A stretch of DNA of 33,363 nt. Source: Nitrospinota bacterium (GTDB lineage Bacteria; Nitrospinota_A; UBA7883; JACRGQ01). The notes below the pieces were generated by a model. It saw only the letters and a list, made by a program, of their open reading frames with translations. It was not told where the DNA came from and did not search any database. Each line of letters opens with the position of its first letter. The first letter of the stretch is position 1. A program made the translations under genes and the position numbers. Shown here one piece after another: positions 13,501 to 22,550 of this stretch. The stretch spans positions 1-33,363 of the forward strand of contig JACQEX010000059.1 of the NCBI GenBank assembly GCA_016200345.1. The letters are read 5' to 3'.

Positions 13501-15747
13501 TTACTTCACGCTGAAGTTTTGGATGTTGATCGAGGTTATTTTTTCCAGGTCGCCGCGTCTTTTCATCCTTTCCGTAAGGTGGGCGACCAGCTTGTCCTGC
13601 GCGTAGTGCGTGTCTGAATAAAACTTGTCCCTAAAAAATCCCTCTATCTCTTTCTCTATCGTCATCTCGTAAAGAAACTGCTTTTTCTCGGCGGTCGTTA
13701 AATCCTTGCCGGAAGCGAAGGTTATCTCCACGTCCGCCGTCATAACCTTCACCTGCTGGGCGTTGTAGTCCACCGGGACGATTATCCCAAAATTAAGGTT
13801 CTTGTTCTGCACCACCGGTTTTGGCGTGACCAGTCTTTCTTCCTTCTTAGCCAACTCAATCGGCTTTTCATGCTTGAGGCCCTCTTTCGGAGTCTCTGTC
13901 TTTGCCGGGGGCTCCTCCTTCTTTTCGGGGGGGGGTGCCGCGGCCTCTTCCTTGGCGGGCGGCTTCGCTGACGCCTCCTCGGTTTTTTTCTCGACCGGCT
14001 CCGTTTTCTCCGCGACTTTGGGGGCCTCGGGTTTTACCGGCTCTTCGTGTTTTGCCTCCTCTGTCGGTTTGACCGGTTTTTCGGCCTCCTTCTTTTCAGG
14101 CGCGGCAGGCGCGGGGGGCTTTACCTCAGCTAATCTCTTCTCCGGTTTCGGAGTAGCTTTTAATGCCGTCGTGATGTGGCCCTTCTTGGCAGTAATCAAC
14201 CTGGCGATGTCTAGATTGTGCCTCGCGCCGAATACGATTAGTGCCAGCGAGGCCGCCAGTGAAAAGGCCGCGATTTTTTGTCTTCGGCTTAGTTTCGGAA
14301 GTCGGATAAGCGCACGTTTTTTGACCTTCTCCGTTTCTTCCGCGTGTTGCTCCGCCTCCTCCGCGGCTTTCCCCGATGGTTCGGGCGCGGGAGTTTGTTG
14401 CGCTTTTTCCGGCGACTTTCCGTTGGCCGGGGCTTGCGCTTGGAAAGCCTCGCTTTCGAACAATTGCGAGGTGTCGGTCGCCTCCTCTTTGAAGAGGTCT
14501 TGTATGTTTGCCGACGAGGTATCGGCGGACGCCTCCCCGACTGCAGGGGCGGCTTCCGTTGCGAAAAGCGCGTTTAGGTCGTCCTGCGAAATTTCCGGTG
14601 TTGCGGCCGGGGCCGAACCGCCGGCCGGTTTGTCAACCGACGCCTCGGCAAACAGCGCGTTTAAATCGTCTTGGGAAATTAAGGCGTCCGACGGGTTTTT
14701 CTCCTCAGCCTTTTCCGGCGGTTGATTTGCGCCTGTGACGGCCATCAAACCCTCGACGCTCTCGCCGGTTATTGCCGCCGGAGCAGTTGGCTTGTCGGAG
14801 TCGTTTGTGGCGAATCCGTTGAGGAGAGCGTCAATATCGTCCTGTCCCGCTATGGCCGGTGTTTCGGTTTTTGCCGAGCCACCGAACAGGGCGTCAATAT
14901 CGTCCTGTCCCGCTATGGCCGGTGTTTCGGTTTTTGCCGAGCCACCGAACAGGGCGTCAATGTCGTCCTGTCCCGCTATGGCCGGTGTTTCAGTTTTTGC
15001 CGAGCCACCGAACAGGGCGTCAATGTCGTCCTGTCCCGCTATGGCCGGCGCCGGTTTTTGTTCGACCACCGGTTTGGGTGGTTCGGGAGTTTTTGCCACC
15101 GCGTTGAAGATTGCGTCCATTTCGTCTAGCTGAGACACCGGTTTTTTTTCAACCACAGGTTTGGGCGGTTCGGGGGTTTTTGTGACGTTTCCAAAGAGCG
15201 CGTCAATGTCATCCTGTCCACCAATCGCAACAATCGGCTCTATGTTGGCGGCTGAACTGAAAATCGCGTCCAGATCGTCTTGGGTGGAGGCGGGTTTTAG
15301 CACCGCCGCCGGTTCGGGTTTCGAAACCTTTTGTTCGGGGGCCTGTTTGCCGGTTTTTATTTCCGTGGCGACGTTCCCAAAAAGGGCGTCAATGTCGTCT
15401 TGGGCCGTTGTGGTTTTTGTCGGTTTTTCATTTAGGGCGTTAAAAATCGCGTCCAGATGGCCTTGTTCAGAGGGGGTTTGTAGGGGGGTGGTGACAATAA
15501 CTTGGGCCGCCGGTTCTTCCGGAGCAGGTTGTTCCTCGATTTTTTTGGCCGTTTCAACAACGGGGGCCGATTGCACGGGAGCTGTCTTGTTAACCATGGG
15601 TTGGGTTTGGTTCGAGGCTATCTTCTTCTTTTTCTTAACGAAAAAGATGTTTTCGCAACTGGCGCAATGGGCGTAGGTTCCGCTATCCGCGATGGATTCA
15701 GAATCCACCTGGTATTTGGTCGAACATTTCGGACAGGTCAACAACAT
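13501..15747 (-). CDS. Zinc-ribbon membrane protein with repeated QDDIDALF peptides and a FliL-like C-terminal domain
   Basis: A 748-residue protein. Residues 1-36 are an MJ0042-type zinc ribbon (C5, C8, C28, C31). Residues 95-430 are low-complexity linkers holding about eleven short acidic-hydrophobic peptides of the type QDDIDALF (for example at 116, 156, 178, 239, 260, 281, 302, 359, 388), with weaker ones at 97, 207, 414 and 426. A basic stretch precedes one membrane helix (492-509). A Pro/Lys/Glu-rich linker (530-645) then leads to a folded C-terminal domain (650-748). That domain, with its late helix region and ending NIQNFSV, is laid out like FliL. Peptides of this type resemble the SQxEIDALL peptide of FliM/FliN. 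Function is not known; the topology predicts repeats in the cytoplasm and the last domain in the periplasm. Confidence 0.8.
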   Translation of the reverse strand: MLLTCPKCSTKYQVDSESIADSGTYAHCASCENIFFVKKKKKIASNQTQPMVNKTAPVQSAPVVETAKKIEEQPAPEEPAAQVIVTTPLQTPSEQGHLDAIFNALNEKPTKTTTAQDDIDALFGNVATEIKTGKQAPEQKVSKPEPAAVLKPASTQDDLDAIFSSAANIEPIVAIGGQDDIDALFGNVTKTPEPPKPVVEKKPVSQLDEMDAIFNAVAKTPEPPKPVVEQKPAPAIAGQDDIDALFGGSAKTETPAIAGQDDIDALFGGSAKTETPAIAGQDDIDALFGGSAKTETPAIAGQDDIDALLNGFATNDSDKPTAPAAITGESVEGLMAVTGANQPPEKAEEKNPSDALISQDDLNALFAEASVDKPAGGSAPAATPEISQDDLNALFATEAAPAVGEASADTSSANIQDLFKEEATDTSQLFESEAFQAQAPANGKSPEKAQQTPAPEPSGKAAEEAEQHAEETEKVKKRALIRLPKLSRRQKIAAFSLAASLALIVFGARHNLDIARLITAKKGHITTALKATPKPEKRLAEVKPPAPAAPEKKEAEKPVKPTEEAKHEEPVKPEAPKVAEKTEPVEKKTEEASAKPPAKEEAAAPPPEKKEEPPAKTETPKEGLKHEKPIELAKKEERLVTPKPVVQNKNLNFGIIVPVDYNAQQVKVMTADVEITFASGKDLTTAEKKQFLYEMTIEKEIEGFFRDKFYSDTHYAQDKLVAHLTERMKRRGDLEKITSINIQNFSVK
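14828..15060 (-). repeat. 63-bp tandem repeat inside the QDDIDALF protein gene
   Basis: GCGTCAAT recurs at 14828, 14891, 14954 and 15017, a strict 63-base period. It encodes a 21-residue unit containing AIAGQDDIDALFGGSAKTET, three complete near-identical copies plus a diverged fourth. Neighbouring copies differ by very few bases, which indicates recent expansion by slippage or unequal recombination. The older, diverged repeats on both sides show the protein has grown this way before. Confidence 0.9.
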
Positions 15748-16108: not shown

Positions 16109-16136
16109 TAGAGATTAACCTTTTTAAGAGGTGCGA

Positions 16137-16796
16137 ATGAGGCCAGTCATCAAATATGCTTTTTCTGCCATTTTTGCGTTTGGAGTCTCCTATGTCATCG
16201 GAACGGAGTATCTAAAATCCCAAGTTAGGGAAGGCGAGGCGAACGGAAAGCAGATTGAGGAGGCTATTTTAGCCCAGAGAGAATGGAACACGGCAAACGC
16301 GAAGTCGCTTAAGACCAAGGCCAAAATTGTCTCAATTTTGAGCGGTTTTAAGAGAACGATGCACCACGACCCGGTGTTGATGGCCGATTTAATTATAAGG
16401 AAGAGCGCCCAGCACAAGCTCGACCCGTTCCTTGTTTTGGGGATGATAAAAACCGAAAGTGATTTTAACAGCATGGCGGTTTCGAACAAGGGGGCCATGG
16501 GGCTTATGCAGATTCAGCCCACCACGGCCCTGCATCTTGCGCCCTACGGAAATTTCGGGTCGGAAAAATCCGAGCGTCTACGGTTGGACAACGAGTTGAA
16601 CATAAGCCTTGGCACAATGTACATCTCAAAGCTTTTACACAGGTTTGGGAAGCTGGAGCTTGCGCTGGAGGCGTACAACAGGGGGCCGGAGGGCCTGCAC
16701 AGGGACATAGCGGAGGGGGATTACAACGGCTCCTACTACGCCGGCAAGGTTATACATCATTATCGGCAGTATAAGTTCGGAACCTACCCCTCCTAA
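16137..16796 (+). CDS. Membrane-anchored lytic transglycosylase (SLT domain)
   Basis: A 219-residue protein with an N-terminal membrane anchor (about residues 5-22), a helical linker, and an SLT-type lysozyme fold from about residue 82. The catalytic glutamate is E107 in IKTESDFNSMAVS; the family motifs GAMGLMQIQPTT (119-130) and ALEAYNRGP follow. Such enzymes cleave the glycan strand of peptidoglycan with formation of 1,6-anhydro-muramic acid, acting in the periplasm. The ATG at 16137 is preferred over the in-frame GTG at 16131, because the latter overlaps the ribosome-binding site AAGAGG. It stands alone, behind a strong promoter and a long structured leader. Confidence 0.9.
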   Translation: MRPVIKYAFSAIFAFGVSYVIGTEYLKSQVREGEANGKQIEEAILAQREWNTANAKSLKTKAKIVSILSGFKRTMHHDPVLMADLIIRKSAQHKLDPFLVLGMIKTESDFNSMAVSNKGAMGLMQIQPTTALHLAPYGNFGSEKSERLRLDNELNISLGTMYISKLLHRFGKLELALEAYNRGPEGLHRDIAEGDYNGSYYAGKVIHHYRQYKFGTYPS

Positions 16797-17436: not shown

Positions 17437-18627
17437 ATGAAATCTACCGATCTTGACTACATAATGACCACCATGCTCGAATCACAATCCAACGTGTCCG
17501 ATTTAAACATCACCGTCGGCAAGCCGTTGCAGGTGGAGAACTCCGGCGAGCTTGTGGAGGTTCCCATCGTGCCGACGGTCAAAAAGCTCACCCCGTTCCA
17601 GACGGAGACGCTGTCCCTTACGATAGTAAATTCCGACAGGCGCCTCACCGACATATTGTTGCGGGAAGGCTCGTGCGACTGCTCGTACCAGGTTCCCGGA
17701 AAGGCGCGCTTTCGCGTGAATATTTTTTCGCAGAGGTCGAACTACTCCATAGTGCTAAGAAAACTCGCCACCCGCATTGCCACCATAGAGGAGATGAAAC
17801 TGCCCGCGCTTTTCCTGGAGATAGCGAAGGAGAAAAACGGGTTTGTGCTGGTGACCGGCTCCACCGGTAGCGGAAAGTCAACGACCCTTGCGGCGATGCT
17901 GGACGCGGTGAACCAGCTAAAGTCAATCCACGTCGTAACGCTGGAGGATCCGGTAGAGTTCGTGCATCCCCATAAAAAGGCGACGTTCAACCAGCGCGAG
18001 TTGGGGACGGATTTCGACGCCTTTTCAAGCGGCTTGCGCGCGGCCCTTCGGCAGGCGCCAAAGGTCATACTCGTCGGCGAAATGCGCGACCGGGAGACGG
18101 TGGAGATAGGAATGTCCGCCGCCGAGACCGGGCACTTGGTCATGAGCACGCTCCACACGGTGGACGCGGGCCAGACGATAAGCAGGATCGTCGGCATGTT
18201 CGACCAGGAGGAGGAGAAGCTCCTCCGCATCCGGCTTGCCGAGACGGTTCGGTGGATTGTCTGCCAACGGCTGGTGCCGAGGCTTGGAGGCGGGCGCGTG
18301 GCGATACTGGAGATAATGGGGAACAACCTCAGGGTGAAGGACGCCATCCTGCACGGGGAGCAGGAGGGGAAATATTTTTACGACATAATATCCGCCGCAG
18401 AGGCGTTCGGATGGCGCACGTTCGACATGAGCCTGGTGGAGGCGTTCTCCCAGGAGTCCATATCCGAGGAGACCGCGCTTGCATATGCGTCCCGCAAGGC
18501 GACCGTCGGCAGGGGCCTTGACTTGGTCAAGGCAAAACGCGGCGAGAAAACAACCAACATCGAGTCGCTTTCCCTCGACGGCAGTTACGGCGAGGAAAGC
18601 CCGATGGATCCAAAGAAAAAGAGGTGA
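17437..18627 (+). CDS. pilT: Type IV pilus retraction ATPase PilT/PilU family
   Basis: A 396-residue hexameric-type secretion ATPase that drives pilus retraction. Walker A is GSTGSGKST (141-149), the Asp box is TLEDPVEF (168-175), the Walker B region is ILVGEMRD (211-218) and the His box is STLHTVDA (237-244). The N-terminal PAS-like region is present. The C-terminus extends past the usual PilT end with a charged tail finishing MDPKKKR, and the usual AIRNLIREGK helix is replaced by KDAILHGEQEGKYF, so PilU is an alternative. The ribosome-binding site GGGAG precedes the ATG. It is the first gene of a tight cluster with pilC and pilS. Confidence 0.88.
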   Translation: MKSTDLDYIMTTMLESQSNVSDLNITVGKPLQVENSGELVEVPIVPTVKKLTPFQTETLSLTIVNSDRRLTDILLREGSCDCSYQVPGKARFRVNIFSQRSNYSIVLRKLATRIATIEEMKLPALFLEIAKEKNGFVLVTGSTGSGKSTTLAAMLDAVNQLKSIHVVTLEDPVEFVHPHKKATFNQRELGTDFDAFSSGLRAALRQAPKVILVGEMRDRETVEIGMSAAETGHLVMSTLHTVDAGQTISRIVGMFDQEEEKLLRIRLAETVRWIVCQRLVPRLGGGRVAILEIMGNNLRVKDAILHGEQEGKYFYDIISAAEAFGWRTFDMSLVEAFSQESISEETALAYASRKATVGRGLDLVKAKRGEKTTNIESLSLDGSYGEESPMDPKKKR

Positions 18628-18630
18628 TGC

Positions 18631-19227
18631 ATGGAAGTAACCTGTCCTTCATGTTCTAAAAAAATCAACCTGCCCGAGGATAAGGTTCCAAAGGGGCAGT
18701 CGTTTAGTTTCGGCTGTCCGTCGTGCAAGGAAAAAATCAAGGTGAACCCGGACGGGACGACGGAGCAACCCTCCCAGGGCGAAACTTTTGGCGATTCCGA
18801 CGCGCCGGGCGCGTTGGTGTGCCACACGGACCACGCAAAATTTAAGTCCGCGTTGGAATCCATGGGCTTTAGGGTGCACGCCCCCTCGGGCCACGCCGAG
18901 GCGATAAACGACCTGCGGTTGAATAATTACCGCCTGGTTTTGGTCACGGACGATTTTGACACGATTCCGCACGAGAACGACGGGGTTCTAAAACATCTTC
19001 AGGAAATGCCGATGGCCACCCGGCGAAAACTTTTTGTGGCGTACGTCGTCAAGGGGGCGCGGTCGTACGACAACATGGAGGCGTTCGCAAACAGCGTGAA
19101 TATAGTGGCGAACCACGAGGACGCCGCAAAAGGGGGCTTTGGGGAACAGTTGTCGAAGGCGATGAAGTCCAACGACCTGTTTTACAAGGTGTATTTCGAG
19201 TGCATGACAGCCCTGGGGAAATCGTGA
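18631..19227 (+). CDS. Zinc-ribbon protein with a receiver-like domain
   Basis: A 198-residue soluble protein. Residues 1-36 are an MJ0042-type zinc ribbon (C5, C8, C29, C32). A short linker leads to a domain from about residue 65 (ALVCHTDHAKFKSALESMGF) with the alternating strand-helix pattern of a response-regulator receiver. YRLVLVTDDF sits where the phosphoacceptor strand would be, but a clear phosphorylatable Asp with its acidic pocket and Lys cannot be confirmed. It may be a pseudo-receiver. It starts three bases after pilT and ends one base before the CNB gene, so a role in control of pilus retraction is likely but inferred from position. Confidence 0.7.
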   Translation: MEVTCPSCSKKINLPEDKVPKGQSFSFGCPSCKEKIKVNPDGTTEQPSQGETFGDSDAPGALVCHTDHAKFKSALESMGFRVHAPSGHAEAINDLRLNNYRLVLVTDDFDTIPHENDGVLKHLQEMPMATRRKLFVAYVVKGARSYDNMEAFANSVNIVANHEDAAKGGFGEQLSKAMKSNDLFYKVYFECMTALGKS

Positions 19228-19228
19228 C

Positions 19229-19657
19229 ATGGCCGGCATAAAACCGAATTTGGTGGAGCGATACTCGAACGGGCAGAACGTCGTGTCCGAGGGGGTGCTT
19301 AGCTCCAAGTGTTATGTGATTCTCTCCGGCAAAGTTCGCGTCTCAAAAAAGAAGGACAACCGCACCGTCACCGTCGCTCTGCTGAGGGAGGGGGACACGT
19401 TCGGCGAGATGGGCCTGTTTCAGGACACCGTCCGGTCGGCAACGGCCACCGCCGTCGGCGACGTGGAGGTGGGGGTTATAGACAAGGCGGATTTTAAAAA
19501 GATGCTTTCCGCGTGCCCGGACAACATGAGGTACATCGTCAACTCGCTTGTAAACCGTCTGCGGCTGACCACCAACAGCCTTGTGGCGATAGGGGTTCAG
19601 CTTGAAAAGGCCAAAAAGTCGCTTGATCCGTTCGCGCTGAAAGACCAGTTGCACTAA
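19229..19657 (+). CDS. Stand-alone cyclic nucleotide-binding domain protein
   Basis: A 142-residue protein made almost entirely of one cNMP-binding fold. The beta-roll is seen in CYVILSGKVRVSKKKDN and LREGDTFGEMGLFQDTVRSA; the latter is the phosphate-binding cassette (GEMGL...RSAT). It ends with a helix instead of a DNA-binding domain, so it is not a CRP/FNR transcription factor. It lies between the zinc-ribbon gene and pilC, overlapping pilC by one base (TAATG). A nucleotide-sensing adaptor for the pilus motor is plausible. Which nucleotide it binds, if any, cannot be told; R in RSAT is compatible with cAMP or cGMP. Confidence 0.82.
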   Translation: MAGIKPNLVERYSNGQNVVSEGVLSSKCYVILSGKVRVSKKKDNRTVTVALLREGDTFGEMGLFQDTVRSATATAVGDVEVGVIDKADFKKMLSACPDNMRYIVNSLVNRLRLTTNSLVAIGVQLEKAKKSLDPFALKDQLH

Positions 19658-20859
19658 TGCCCACGTACGTTTATAAGTTCCAGACAAAAATCGGCGTGCA
19701 AACCGCGGAGTTGGAGTCGGAATCGCTGGAGGCCGCTACGGCCTTCCTCAAGAAACAAAAAATAACGCCCATAAGCGTAAAGGAAAAACCGAAGGACATT
19801 CTTGCGTTTTTGGGCGGCGGCCAGCCCACGCCGAAGGACATCGTCGTTTTCGTCAGGCAGTTCGCCACGATGATAAACGCCGGCCTGCCGCTCGTCCAGT
19901 GCCTGGACATTCTCGGCTCGCAGGGCACCAACAAAGTTTTCAACAGAACCATAATGGACATCAAGTCGCGCATCGAGCAGGGGGACACGTTCGCGGACTC
20001 GCTCAGGCGGCACCCGCTGGTGTTCGACCATCTTTTTTGCAACATGGTGGAGGCCGGCGAAATAGGCGGTATTTTGGACGTGATATTGTTGCGCCTCGCG
20101 TCCTATATAGAGAAGGCGATGGCGTTGAAGGGGAAGGTGAAGTCGGCCCTTGTCTACCCCGTCGCAATCATGGTCATAGCGGTCACGGTCGTCACCTTTC
20201 TATTGGTGTTCATCATCCCGCAGTTCGCCACGATGTTCAACGACATGGGCGGCATGAAGCTACCCGCCGTGACCCTAAGCGTCATCTGGCTGAGCGATGC
20301 GCTTATACACAACTGGATTGCTTTTGCCGGAACCCCGGTTGCGCTTTATTTTGCCATCAGCAAATACAACAAAACCGAGAAGGGGAAATTTGTCATAGAC
20401 TCGCTGTTGCTAAAGCTCCCGGTGGTGGGGATACTCATCCAAAAAATATCCGTCGCAAAATTCAGCAGAACCATGGGAACCCTGATATCCTCGGGCGTCC
20501 CGATAATAGAGGGGCTTGGCATCACCTCCAAGACCGCCGGCAACAAGGTCATTGAAAAGGCGGTGAGCGACATAATCGAGGACATAAAACAGGGAAAAGG
20601 GCTTGGCGAGCCGCTGAGGTCGCAGGGGGTTTTCCCGCCGATGGTGGTGCAGATGATAGAGGTCGGCGAACAGTCCGGCGCGCTCGACACGATGTTGAAC
20701 AAGATAGCGGATTTTTACGACCAGGAGGTTGACGACCAGGTGGACGCGCTGACCTCGTTGTTGGAGCCGATACTCATGGTGTTTCTCGCGATAGTCGTCG
20801 GCTACGTCGTCATAGCGATGTACATGCCAATATTCAAGATGGGCGCGGGAGCCGCCTAG
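19657..20859 (+). CDS. pilC: Type IV pilus inner-membrane platform protein PilC (GspF family)
   Basis: A 400-residue GspF/PilC-type protein: a short N-terminal strand region (TYVYKFQTKIG), then two copies of the cytoplasmic helical-bundle domain, each followed by membrane helices. The first repeat contains FVRQFATMINAGLPLVQCLD and MVEAGEIGG, the second FSRTMGTLISSGVPIIEGL and MIEVGEQSGALD. PilC links the pilus assembly and retraction ATPases to the growing pilus. The start overlaps the preceding CNB gene by one base. The pilB extension ATPase and the pilin genes are not in the window. Confidence 0.92.
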   Translation: MPTYVYKFQTKIGVQTAELESESLEAATAFLKKQKITPISVKEKPKDILAFLGGGQPTPKDIVVFVRQFATMINAGLPLVQCLDILGSQGTNKVFNRTIMDIKSRIEQGDTFADSLRRHPLVFDHLFCNMVEAGEIGGILDVILLRLASYIEKAMALKGKVKSALVYPVAIMVIAVTVVTFLLVFIIPQFATMFNDMGGMKLPAVTLSVIWLSDALIHNWIAFAGTPVALYFAISKYNKTEKGKFVIDSLLLKLPVVGILIQKISVAKFSRTMGTLISSGVPIIEGLGITSKTAGNKVIEKAVSDIIEDIKQGKGLGEPLRSQGVFPPMVVQMIEVGEQSGALDTMLNKIADFYDQEVDDQVDALTSLLEPILMVFLAIVVGYVVIAMYMPIFKMGAGAA

Positions 20860-20882
20860 GCCGCCTGGTCGCAAGGGGTCTG

Positions 20883-22550
20883 ATGGAGAAGCAGACAATC
20901 CGGCCGCTTTCCATGATTCTCGAGGAGGCGGTCGTGATAAAGGCGTTAATCGCCTTTAGGGTGGCGGCCGTGTCGTTCTTTCTCGGCGTGGTCATAATAT
21001 TCCAGAACGAGTTTGGCTCGCTAATCCATCCGTTGCCCATCTCCATGCTCATCGCCGCCACGTATCTCCTCTCCGTACTTTATCTCACGGTTCTGGGGCG
21101 GGTGCAAAACACGGCGCTTTTCGTCTATTTACAGCTTGCCGTGGACTTGTTGATAGAGACGGGCATAATTTACTACACCGGCGGCGGGAACAGCCCGTTC
21201 ACCTTCCTCTACCTTCTCACAATTGTTTCTTCCGTCGTTGCGGCGCAACCTTACAGCGGCTACGGGCTGGCCTCGGGCGCGAGCATACTTTACGGATTGC
21301 TGGTCAGCCTCGAGAGCTACGGCGTGCTGTCGCCGCCCCCTTTGCTGGCCGCCAACCCCGGCAACGTACATCCGCAGGGATACGTCTTTTTTATGGCGTT
21401 GGTCCATATGTCCGCGTTTTATCTGGTGGCGTTTCTAAGCGATTTTCTCTCGCGCAGGCTAAGGCAGACCATTCATTCCCTCTCGGCAAAAAGCTCGGAC
21501 CTCACCTACCTGCAGGCGTTCCACCAAAACGTGATAGCCAACATGGGGAGCGGGTTCATGGCGCTGGACAACGACGGAGTGATCGTCTCCTCCAACAACG
21601 CGGCGGAGCAGATTTTGGAGTCGCCCAAATCCTCCTTCATGAAAAAAAGAATCGAGGCGGCTTTTCCCACCCTGGTCGTGGAGTCCGGGCGCGGGGTGGA
21701 GAACAAGAGCGAGTGGAGCTACGTTGCGCCGGGCGGGACGAAAAAACTTCTTTCGTTCACCAGCTCGCAGTTTAAGGACGCGGACGGGTCGGCCCTGGGT
21801 GTGATAATCATTTTTCAGGACATAACAAATTTTAAGCTTATGGAGGCGGCGGTCTCGAAGTCGGAACGGCTGGCCGCGATGGGGAGGATGGCCGCCGGCC
21901 TAGCGCACGAGATTAAAAACCCGCTCGGCTCCATAAGCGGCTCCATACAAATAATCAAGGATTCGATGGAAAAGGGGAACACGGCCCCCAACGAAAAACT
22001 TATGGCGATAATTCTAAGGGAGACCGCAAGGCTGGACAGCATCATAGGGAGGTTTCTCTCCTACGCGGCCCCGAACACAAGGAAGGTGCCGGACGTCGGT
22101 CTTTCCGCGCTTTTGTCCGATTCGGTCGCGCTCTTTTCCAACGACGCAAGGTACGCCGGGCACGTCAGGGCGGAGTTGGACGTTGACGAAAGGATAAGGT
22201 GCGAATGCGACCCCGAGGCGTTAAAACAGGTTTTTTGGAATTTACTGCTTAACGCGGCCCAGGCCATGCCGGGCGGAGGGACGATTAAAATATCCTTGAA
22301 ACCCGTTCCGGGAGAGGGGGAGGCCTCCGGGAGGTGCCTTTTAACTTTTTCCGATTCCGGCGCCGGTATTTCCAACGAGTCGCTCGGTAAAATTTTCGAG
22401 CCGTTCTTCACCACCAAAGAGGGGGGAACCGGGCTTGGCCTGCCTCTTGCCCTTAAGATTATAGAAAGCCACGAGGGGACACTCGCCGTCCGGACCAAAG
22501 AGGGGGTCGGCACCACCTTTTCAATCCGCCTCCCCATAACCCCGCTATAA
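20883..22550 (+). CDS. pilS: PilS-like sensor histidine kinase
   Basis: A 555-residue kinase. The N-terminus has about six membrane helices (residues 20-190). A PAS domain follows (about 205-320; NVIANMGSGFMALDNDGVIV). The dimerisation/phosphoacceptor helix has H342 in GLAHEIKNPLGS. The ATPase domain carries the N box NLLLNAAQAM, G1 DSGAGIS, the F box FEPFFTT and G2 GGTGLGLPLA. This layout and the pilT-pilC neighbourhood match PilS, which with PilR controls pilin transcription. pilR, a sigma-54 activator, would be expected next but is absent; a dksA-like gene follows instead. The ribosome-binding site AGGGG precedes the ATG. Confidence 0.85.
   Translation: MEKQTIRPLSMILEEAVVIKALIAFRVAAVSFFLGVVIIFQNEFGSLIHPLPISMLIAATYLLSVLYLTVLGRVQNTALFVYLQLAVDLLIETGIIYYTGGGNSPFTFLYLLTIVSSVVAAQPYSGYGLASGASILYGLLVSLESYGVLSPPPLLAANPGNVHPQGYVFFMALVHMSAFYLVAFLSDFLSRRLRQTIHSLSAKSSDLTYLQAFHQNVIANMGSGFMALDNDGVIVSSNNAAEQILESPKSSFMKKRIEAAFPTLVVESGRGVENKSEWSYVAPGGTKKLLSFTSSQFKDADGSALGVIIIFQDITNFKLMEAAVSKSERLAAMGRMAAGLAHEIKNPLGSISGSIQIIKDSMEKGNTAPNEKLMAIILRETARLDSIIGRFLSYAAPNTRKVPDVGLSALLSDSVALFSNDARYAGHVRAELDVDERIRCECDPEALKQVFWNLLLNAAQAMPGGGTIKISLKPVPGEGEASGRCLLTFSDSGAGISNESLGKIFEPFFTTKEGGTGLGLPLALKIIESHEGTLAVRTKEGVGTTFSIRLPITPL

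Follow-up and report, generated by a model that had tools for sequence, protein, structure and literature searches.

A gene encoding 748 amino acids (positions 13501..15747, minus strand), located in the 33,363-nucleotide stretch of Nitrospinota DNA analyzed here (the window), very probably specifies an accessory protein of the flagellar motor that combines a FliL-like domain with mimics of the FliM N-terminus. From its N-terminus, the protein consists of a zinc ribbon, a disordered tail carrying a peptide array, a transmembrane (TM) helix, a P/E/K-rich linker and the FliL-like domain. We consider the link to the motor strong and the link to CheY, which is drawn from sequence likeness, plausible. 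The novelty lies in a FliL-like protein with a FliM-mimicking cytoplasmic arm, which is not described in the literature searched; FliL itself is already known. The gene is located outside the flagellar operon, in a genome of 2.24 Mb distributed over 113 contigs (92.9% complete).

The first 36 residues (15640..15747; all features of the gene are on the minus strand) form an MJ0042-type zinc ribbon, predicted to be cytoplasmic, which matched PF13717 above its cut-off (E=6.5e-10) and TIGR02098 (E=6.3e-6), and fell narrowly below the cut-off of PF13719 (29.1 bits vs 29.3). The tail is acidic, with a net charge of -41 over about 418 residues. The hydropathy maximum marks a single TM helix (aa ~490-508; 14224..14280), and the basic residues that precede it are, under the positive-inside rule, consistent with a cytoplasmic location of the tail. 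Beyond the helix, a linker defined by its composition, rich in P, E and K and predicted to be periplasmic (aa 510-648; 13804..14220), has no aromatic residue along its 138 aa. It leads into a conserved domain of roughly 100 aa at the C-terminus, folded by prediction (aa 647-748; 13504..13809), which would lie across the membrane from the peptide tail, that is, in the periplasm. A previous sequence-only reading of this DNA had proposed a membrane-tethered cytoplasmic tail, with a zinc ribbon at its tip and about eleven FliM-like peptides. The ribbon and the peptides (ten strict, plus the looser QGHLDAIF) were borne out, and the single helix with its basic flank fits the proposed tether, but the linker and the folded C-terminal domain had been overlooked.

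The first peptide of the array, QGHLDAIF (aa 95-102; 15442..15465), was read from the translation. Motif scans identified the second, QDDIDALF (aa 116-123; 15379..15402), the third, QDDLDAIF (aa 156-163; 15259..15282), the fourth, QDDIDALF (aa 178-185; 15193..15216), and the sixth to ninth, which comprise three further copies of QDDIDALF (aa 239-246, 260-267 and 281-288; 15010..15033, 14947..14970 and 14884..14907) and one QDDIDALL (aa 302-309; 14821..14844). A scan with the strict core pattern, [DENQ][ILVM][DN][ASD][LIFM][LIFM], recovered the fifth, LDEMDAIF (aa 207-214; 15106..15129), as well as the tenth and eleventh, both (IS)QDDLNALF (aa 359-366 and 388-395; 14650..14673 and 14563..14586). 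Ten strict cores were present between aa 118 and 395, whereas 2000 shuffles of the same region averaged 0.02 and never gave more than 1. Repeat detection in the DNA revealed a 63-bp (21-aa) tandem repeat with 3.5 copies and 98% matches (14828..15048), evidently a recent expansion of the array. Because these 21-aa units are nearly identical, the raw peptide count is inflated; the remaining peptides sit in unrelated spacers.

The same peptide recurs throughout the homologue family, whose named members come from MAGs labelled Nitrospinota, Nitrospinales, Nitrospinaceae or Nitrospirae, several of them from groundwater. Among 104 distinct peptides, the successive core positions are I/L (96%), D (96%), A/S (85%), L/I (90%) and F/L (92%); the final hydrophobic position is often F, where FliM has L, and in some homologues S, A or other residues replace the Q-D ahead of the core. 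The number of strict peptides per homologue ranges from 2 to 25, the repeat units measure 20, 21, 25, 27 and 30-32 aa, and the spacers are unrelated. The arrays grew independently and the peptide alone was retained. The largest homologue, from genome G003 (L029:7313-12082), has 1589 aa and carries about 25 FliM-like peptides; these belong to two array types that follow one another, with units of 32 and 30 aa.

In the 18 FliM-bearing Nitrospinota genomes, the N-terminus of FliM is MSQVLSQEEVDALLRG or close to that, and, set against these FliM N-termini, the array peptides have the SQxEIDALL-like sequence of a FliM-type docking peptide. A degenerate DNA pattern encoding [QE][DE][DE]-h-D-A-h-[LF] was scanned over 24 whole Nitrospinota genomes, with the reversed pattern as a control. 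Counted from the listed places, the pattern matched 60 times: 38 matches were in the peptide-array gene, FliM N-termini accounted for 18 and the other 4 were scattered, so that 56 of the 60 were confined to two genes, while the reversed pattern matched nowhere in the 24 genomes. Seven of the eight matches in the window's genome lie in the array gene, and the eighth is FliM. The four stray matches are single occurrences, for example in a glutamate-synthase-like enzyme and a ScpB-like protein (named by eye). Together, the shuffles and the genome-wide scan rule out that the array is a chance product of low complexity. The same observations bear on the possibility that the protein is a polar scaffold of the ZitP or GltJ type, whose peptides would have no relation to FliM and would simply be acidic repeats of low complexity. 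A zinc ribbon plus TM does occur in the flagellum-less genome G007, which speaks for this explanation, but the motif lies far over the shuffled expectation and is almost limited, genome-wide, to FliM and the array gene, and the FliL-like domain is missing wherever FliM is missing. We therefore regard such a scaffold as very improbable.

The C-terminal domain was modelled with AlphaFold (AF2) from an alignment of 16 rows, giving a beta-beta-alpha-alpha-alpha-beta arrangement with a pLDDT of 88.9. When this model was searched with Foldseek against 350,542 PDB chains, ranks 1-10 were all FliL periplasmic domains, followed by stomatin SPFH domains, with TM scores of 0.56-0.65 and modest E values (2.7e-3 and up). 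The FliL structures among the first ten ranks include 6AHQ, 6AHP, 7SGN and chain O of 9HMF, a C. jejuni motor scaffold, which we take to be FliL. A homologue from outside the phylum, in G315 (found at E=2.5e-17), gave a model with a pLDDT of 88.6, for which FliL occupied the first ten ranks and rank 12 (E 1e-5 to 4e-4, TM up to 0.82). Both models have the stomatin/SPFH-like periplasmic fold of the FliL family, and by this modelling the C-terminal domain has the FliL fold. In the Pfam scan, the window protein had no match to FliL (PF03748) and the G315 homologue matched it weakly (E=0.004, 18.1 bits vs a cut-off of 24.6, the match ending at the last residue); a search of the domain profile against PDB sequences did not find FliL. 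In hhalign comparisons with the FliL proteins encoded in these genomes, the initial domain profile gave no significant alignment (P=0.099), and the profile enriched with divergent homologues aligned end to end (P=9e-4). Because the Pfam FliL cut-off was not reached, we name the domain FliL-like and not FliL. The window's genome encodes a canonical fliL separately, adjoining fliM. It also contains a further FliL paralogue on contig C91 (L160:9946-11901), adjoining a receiver-plus-TPR protein; a comparable receiver-plus-TPR protein is found near the flhF/flhG cluster (L157:10187-11389).

The mimicry of rotor tails may extend to FliN as well as FliM, because the tails of two homologues match the FliN N-terminal motif (FliN_N, PF16973): that of G315 (L111) in four stretches (9.7e-12) and that of G023 (L041) weakly, below the cut-off (0.0014). 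In G315, FliN itself apparently does not carry this motif. That FliM and FliN tails both appear mimicked would suit a stator-rotor adaptor operating without CheY or FlhG, whose peptides bind the C-ring (FliM, FliN or FliG) and physically couple a FliL-type stator ring to the rotor, acting as recruiter or brake. The FliL fold agrees with this idea, as does the report that the N-terminal region of FliL can negatively modulate motor output (PMC10127578). The highly variable copy number of the peptides argues against such an adaptor, which we consider improbable. Moreover, we know of no receptor for the FliM N-terminus within the C-ring.

If the protein serves the flagellum, the gene should follow FliM across genomes; the sequence-only reading had named co-occurrence with flagellar and che genes as one check, and homologues common in non-motile genomes as an observation that would speak against it. 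The FliL-like domain was present in 16 of the 18 FliM-bearing Nitrospinota genomes and in none of the six FliM-less ones (Fisher P=2e-4, not corrected for relatedness). Thus, the expected association was observed and the contrary one was not, and the proposed link to the flagellar motor is now backed by the FliL fold, by the co-occurrence with FliM and by a motif that is nearly exclusive to the FliM N-terminus and the array gene. Regarding the two FliM-bearing exceptions, the zinc-ribbon start of the gene sits at a contig end in G020, and no copy was detected in G004, an assembly of 410 contigs. The FliM-less set comprised G007, G014, three species of genus g12 and G010; this last genome, though counted as FliM-less, is uninformative and probably just incomplete, since FlhF is present and completeness is 78%. 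Three FliM-less genomes (G015, G016 and G022) retain 11-15 CheW-domain matches and have no array gene. Consequently, the gene tracks the flagellum and not chemosensory systems at large, and a link to the latter in general is ruled out.

The genomic neighborhood offers a second view of this association. In flagellated relatives, the gene order is SLT, array gene, GatB. The SLT lytic transglycosylase, which in the window is divergently transcribed (16131..16796, plus strand; PF01464, 7.1e-24), is the most conserved neighbor across the phylum and also adjoins the G315 homologue. A flagellum-specific role for this neighbor is ruled out, since FliM-less genomes keep SLT homologues: in G014 the SLT gene adjoins GatB and the slot between them is empty, and in G007 it lies beside a truncated orthologue of the array gene. 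This orthologue (L112:5492-7186), which occupies the same slot, has a zinc ribbon, an acidic tail, a C-terminal TM and one peptide, DEDIDALL; it lacks the FliL-like domain and represents a natural truncation. This pattern suggests a flagellar function for the FliL-like domain and the array, and an additional role for the zinc ribbon. As both the ribbon and the TM are present in flagellum-less G007, they probably have a role independent of the flagellum. Elsewhere in the window, positions 17437-22550 (plus strand) carry a Type IV pilus/T2SS-like cluster with a T2SSE ATPase, a cNMP-binding protein, T2SSF and a PilS-type kinase. Within this cluster, a 198-aa protein (18631-19227) has a second zinc ribbon (Zn_ribbon_4) followed by an apparent degenerate receiver domain.

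We hypothesize that the protein is a FliL-type accessory whose multivalent mimics of the FliM tail capture, most likely, CheY~P; to this explanation as a whole we assign an even chance. FliL forms a ring around the stator (PMC6426602), and, judging from its fold, the C-terminal domain would form or join such a ring in the periplasm. One helix would span the inner membrane, and inside the cell a disordered acidic arm capped by the zinc ribbon would present about eleven FliM N-terminal motifs beside the C-ring. Displaying copies of the FliM motif at this location, the arm would act as a multivalent decoy or antenna for binders of the FliM N-terminus, CheY~P being the most likely. Holding CheY~P at the motor could raise its local concentration and buffer switching, or could make stator engagement CheY-dependent. 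Polar targeting could be a further contribution of the zinc ribbon, by analogy with that of ZitP, which acts via PopZ (PMC5182065). If the ring were decameric, like crystal FliL, ten arms would bring around a hundred mimics of the FliM tail close to the C-ring. A stator-ring-anchored antenna of this kind, in which FliL-type rings concentrate CheY~P (and perhaps FlhG) at the C-ring, is a more tentative proposal, and we place it somewhat below an even chance.

Since CheY~P binds FliM/FliY at the EIDALL sequence (PMC9126983), the simplest interpretation is that the arm captures CheY~P. The window's genome has genes for CheA and for receiver proteins. We judge the odds to be about even that CheY~P is the main partner of the peptides. 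The 'CheY sink' of the sequence-only reading is one of two live readings, since FlhG has been reported to bind this FliM N-terminus too and to act on FliM/N through it (PMC12826062). In this main rival, the peptides bind FlhG, a MinD-like ATPase, and hold it at the pole or motor, setting flagellar number and C-ring assembly in a HubP/FimV-like manner. FlhF and FlhG are adjacent in the window's genome, and FlhG contains DQADTLR, which fits the DQAxxLR motif. HubP interacts with FlhG and is built on the same general plan, with a single TM, a periplasmic domain and, in the cytosol, a large region that is acidic and repetitive (PMC8789113), and the ZitP zinc ribbon is a pole-targeting element (PMC5182065). 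However, the periplasmic domain of HubP is LysM and not FliL-like, and those parts of the HubP literature that were available describe nothing like an EIDALL array. The results fit both partners; we consider capture of FlhG less likely than not, and our model retains CheY~P as the preferred one.

If CheY~P or FlhG is captured, motor control would include a stator-side decoy of the rotor, and the coupling of signal concentration, stator engagement and flagellar number becomes a testable question. The antenna, if true, would add a level of motor control that is not known in other flagella, with rotor tail motifs (those of FliM and, in some lineages, FliN) copied onto a stator-side protein. For flagellated Nitrospinota, known here only from MAGs, the protein would also be a motor component present across the phylum and named by no family model. 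In the literature searched, neither a long cytoplasmic arm nor rotor docking peptides were described for any FliL-type protein, and nothing turned up on FliL with a zinc ribbon and FliM or on FliL with Nitrospinota.

Finally, we compared the array protein with known systems. It shares with Caulobacter ZitP an N-terminal zinc ribbon (zinc_ribbon_5 superfamily), a TM and a C-terminal extracytoplasmic domain; the latter is DUF3426 in ZitP, which had no match in the Pfam scans of the array protein, and FliL-like here. GltJ/AgmX of Myxococcus has the same layout of N-terminal zinc ribbon, TM and C-terminal extracytoplasmic domain. In the descriptions of ZitP and GltJ/AgmX that were available in part, neither has a FliM-like array. 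The peptides share the core SQxx[IVL]DAL[LF] with the EIDALL peptide of FliM/FliY, the nearest being the membrane-proximal copies (ISQDDLNALF vs LSQDEVDALL in FliM; ISQDDLDALL or VSQDDLDALF in homologues), but they are repeated many times along an arm tethered to the membrane, where the rotor subunit has a single one, and their last L is frequently F. By analogy, HubP provides the nearest functional layout (PMC8789113), HubP/FimV likewise combining a single TM with a periplasmic domain and a large, repetitive and acidic region in the cytosol; HubP differs in having LysM, for which the Pfam scans gave no match in the array protein, and TPR, in place of a FliL-like domain and a zinc ribbon. Like FliL (PF03748), the array protein is a single-pass membrane protein, its N-terminus predicted to be inside, with a variable linker and, at the C-terminus, a stomatin-like domain for which the same fold is predicted. 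The sequence of this domain has diverged too far to match Pfam FliL. In contrast to the 2-28 cytoplasmic residues of known FliL proteins (PMC10127578), a cytoplasmic arm of about 490 aa, bearing the zinc ribbon and the peptide array, precedes its helix.
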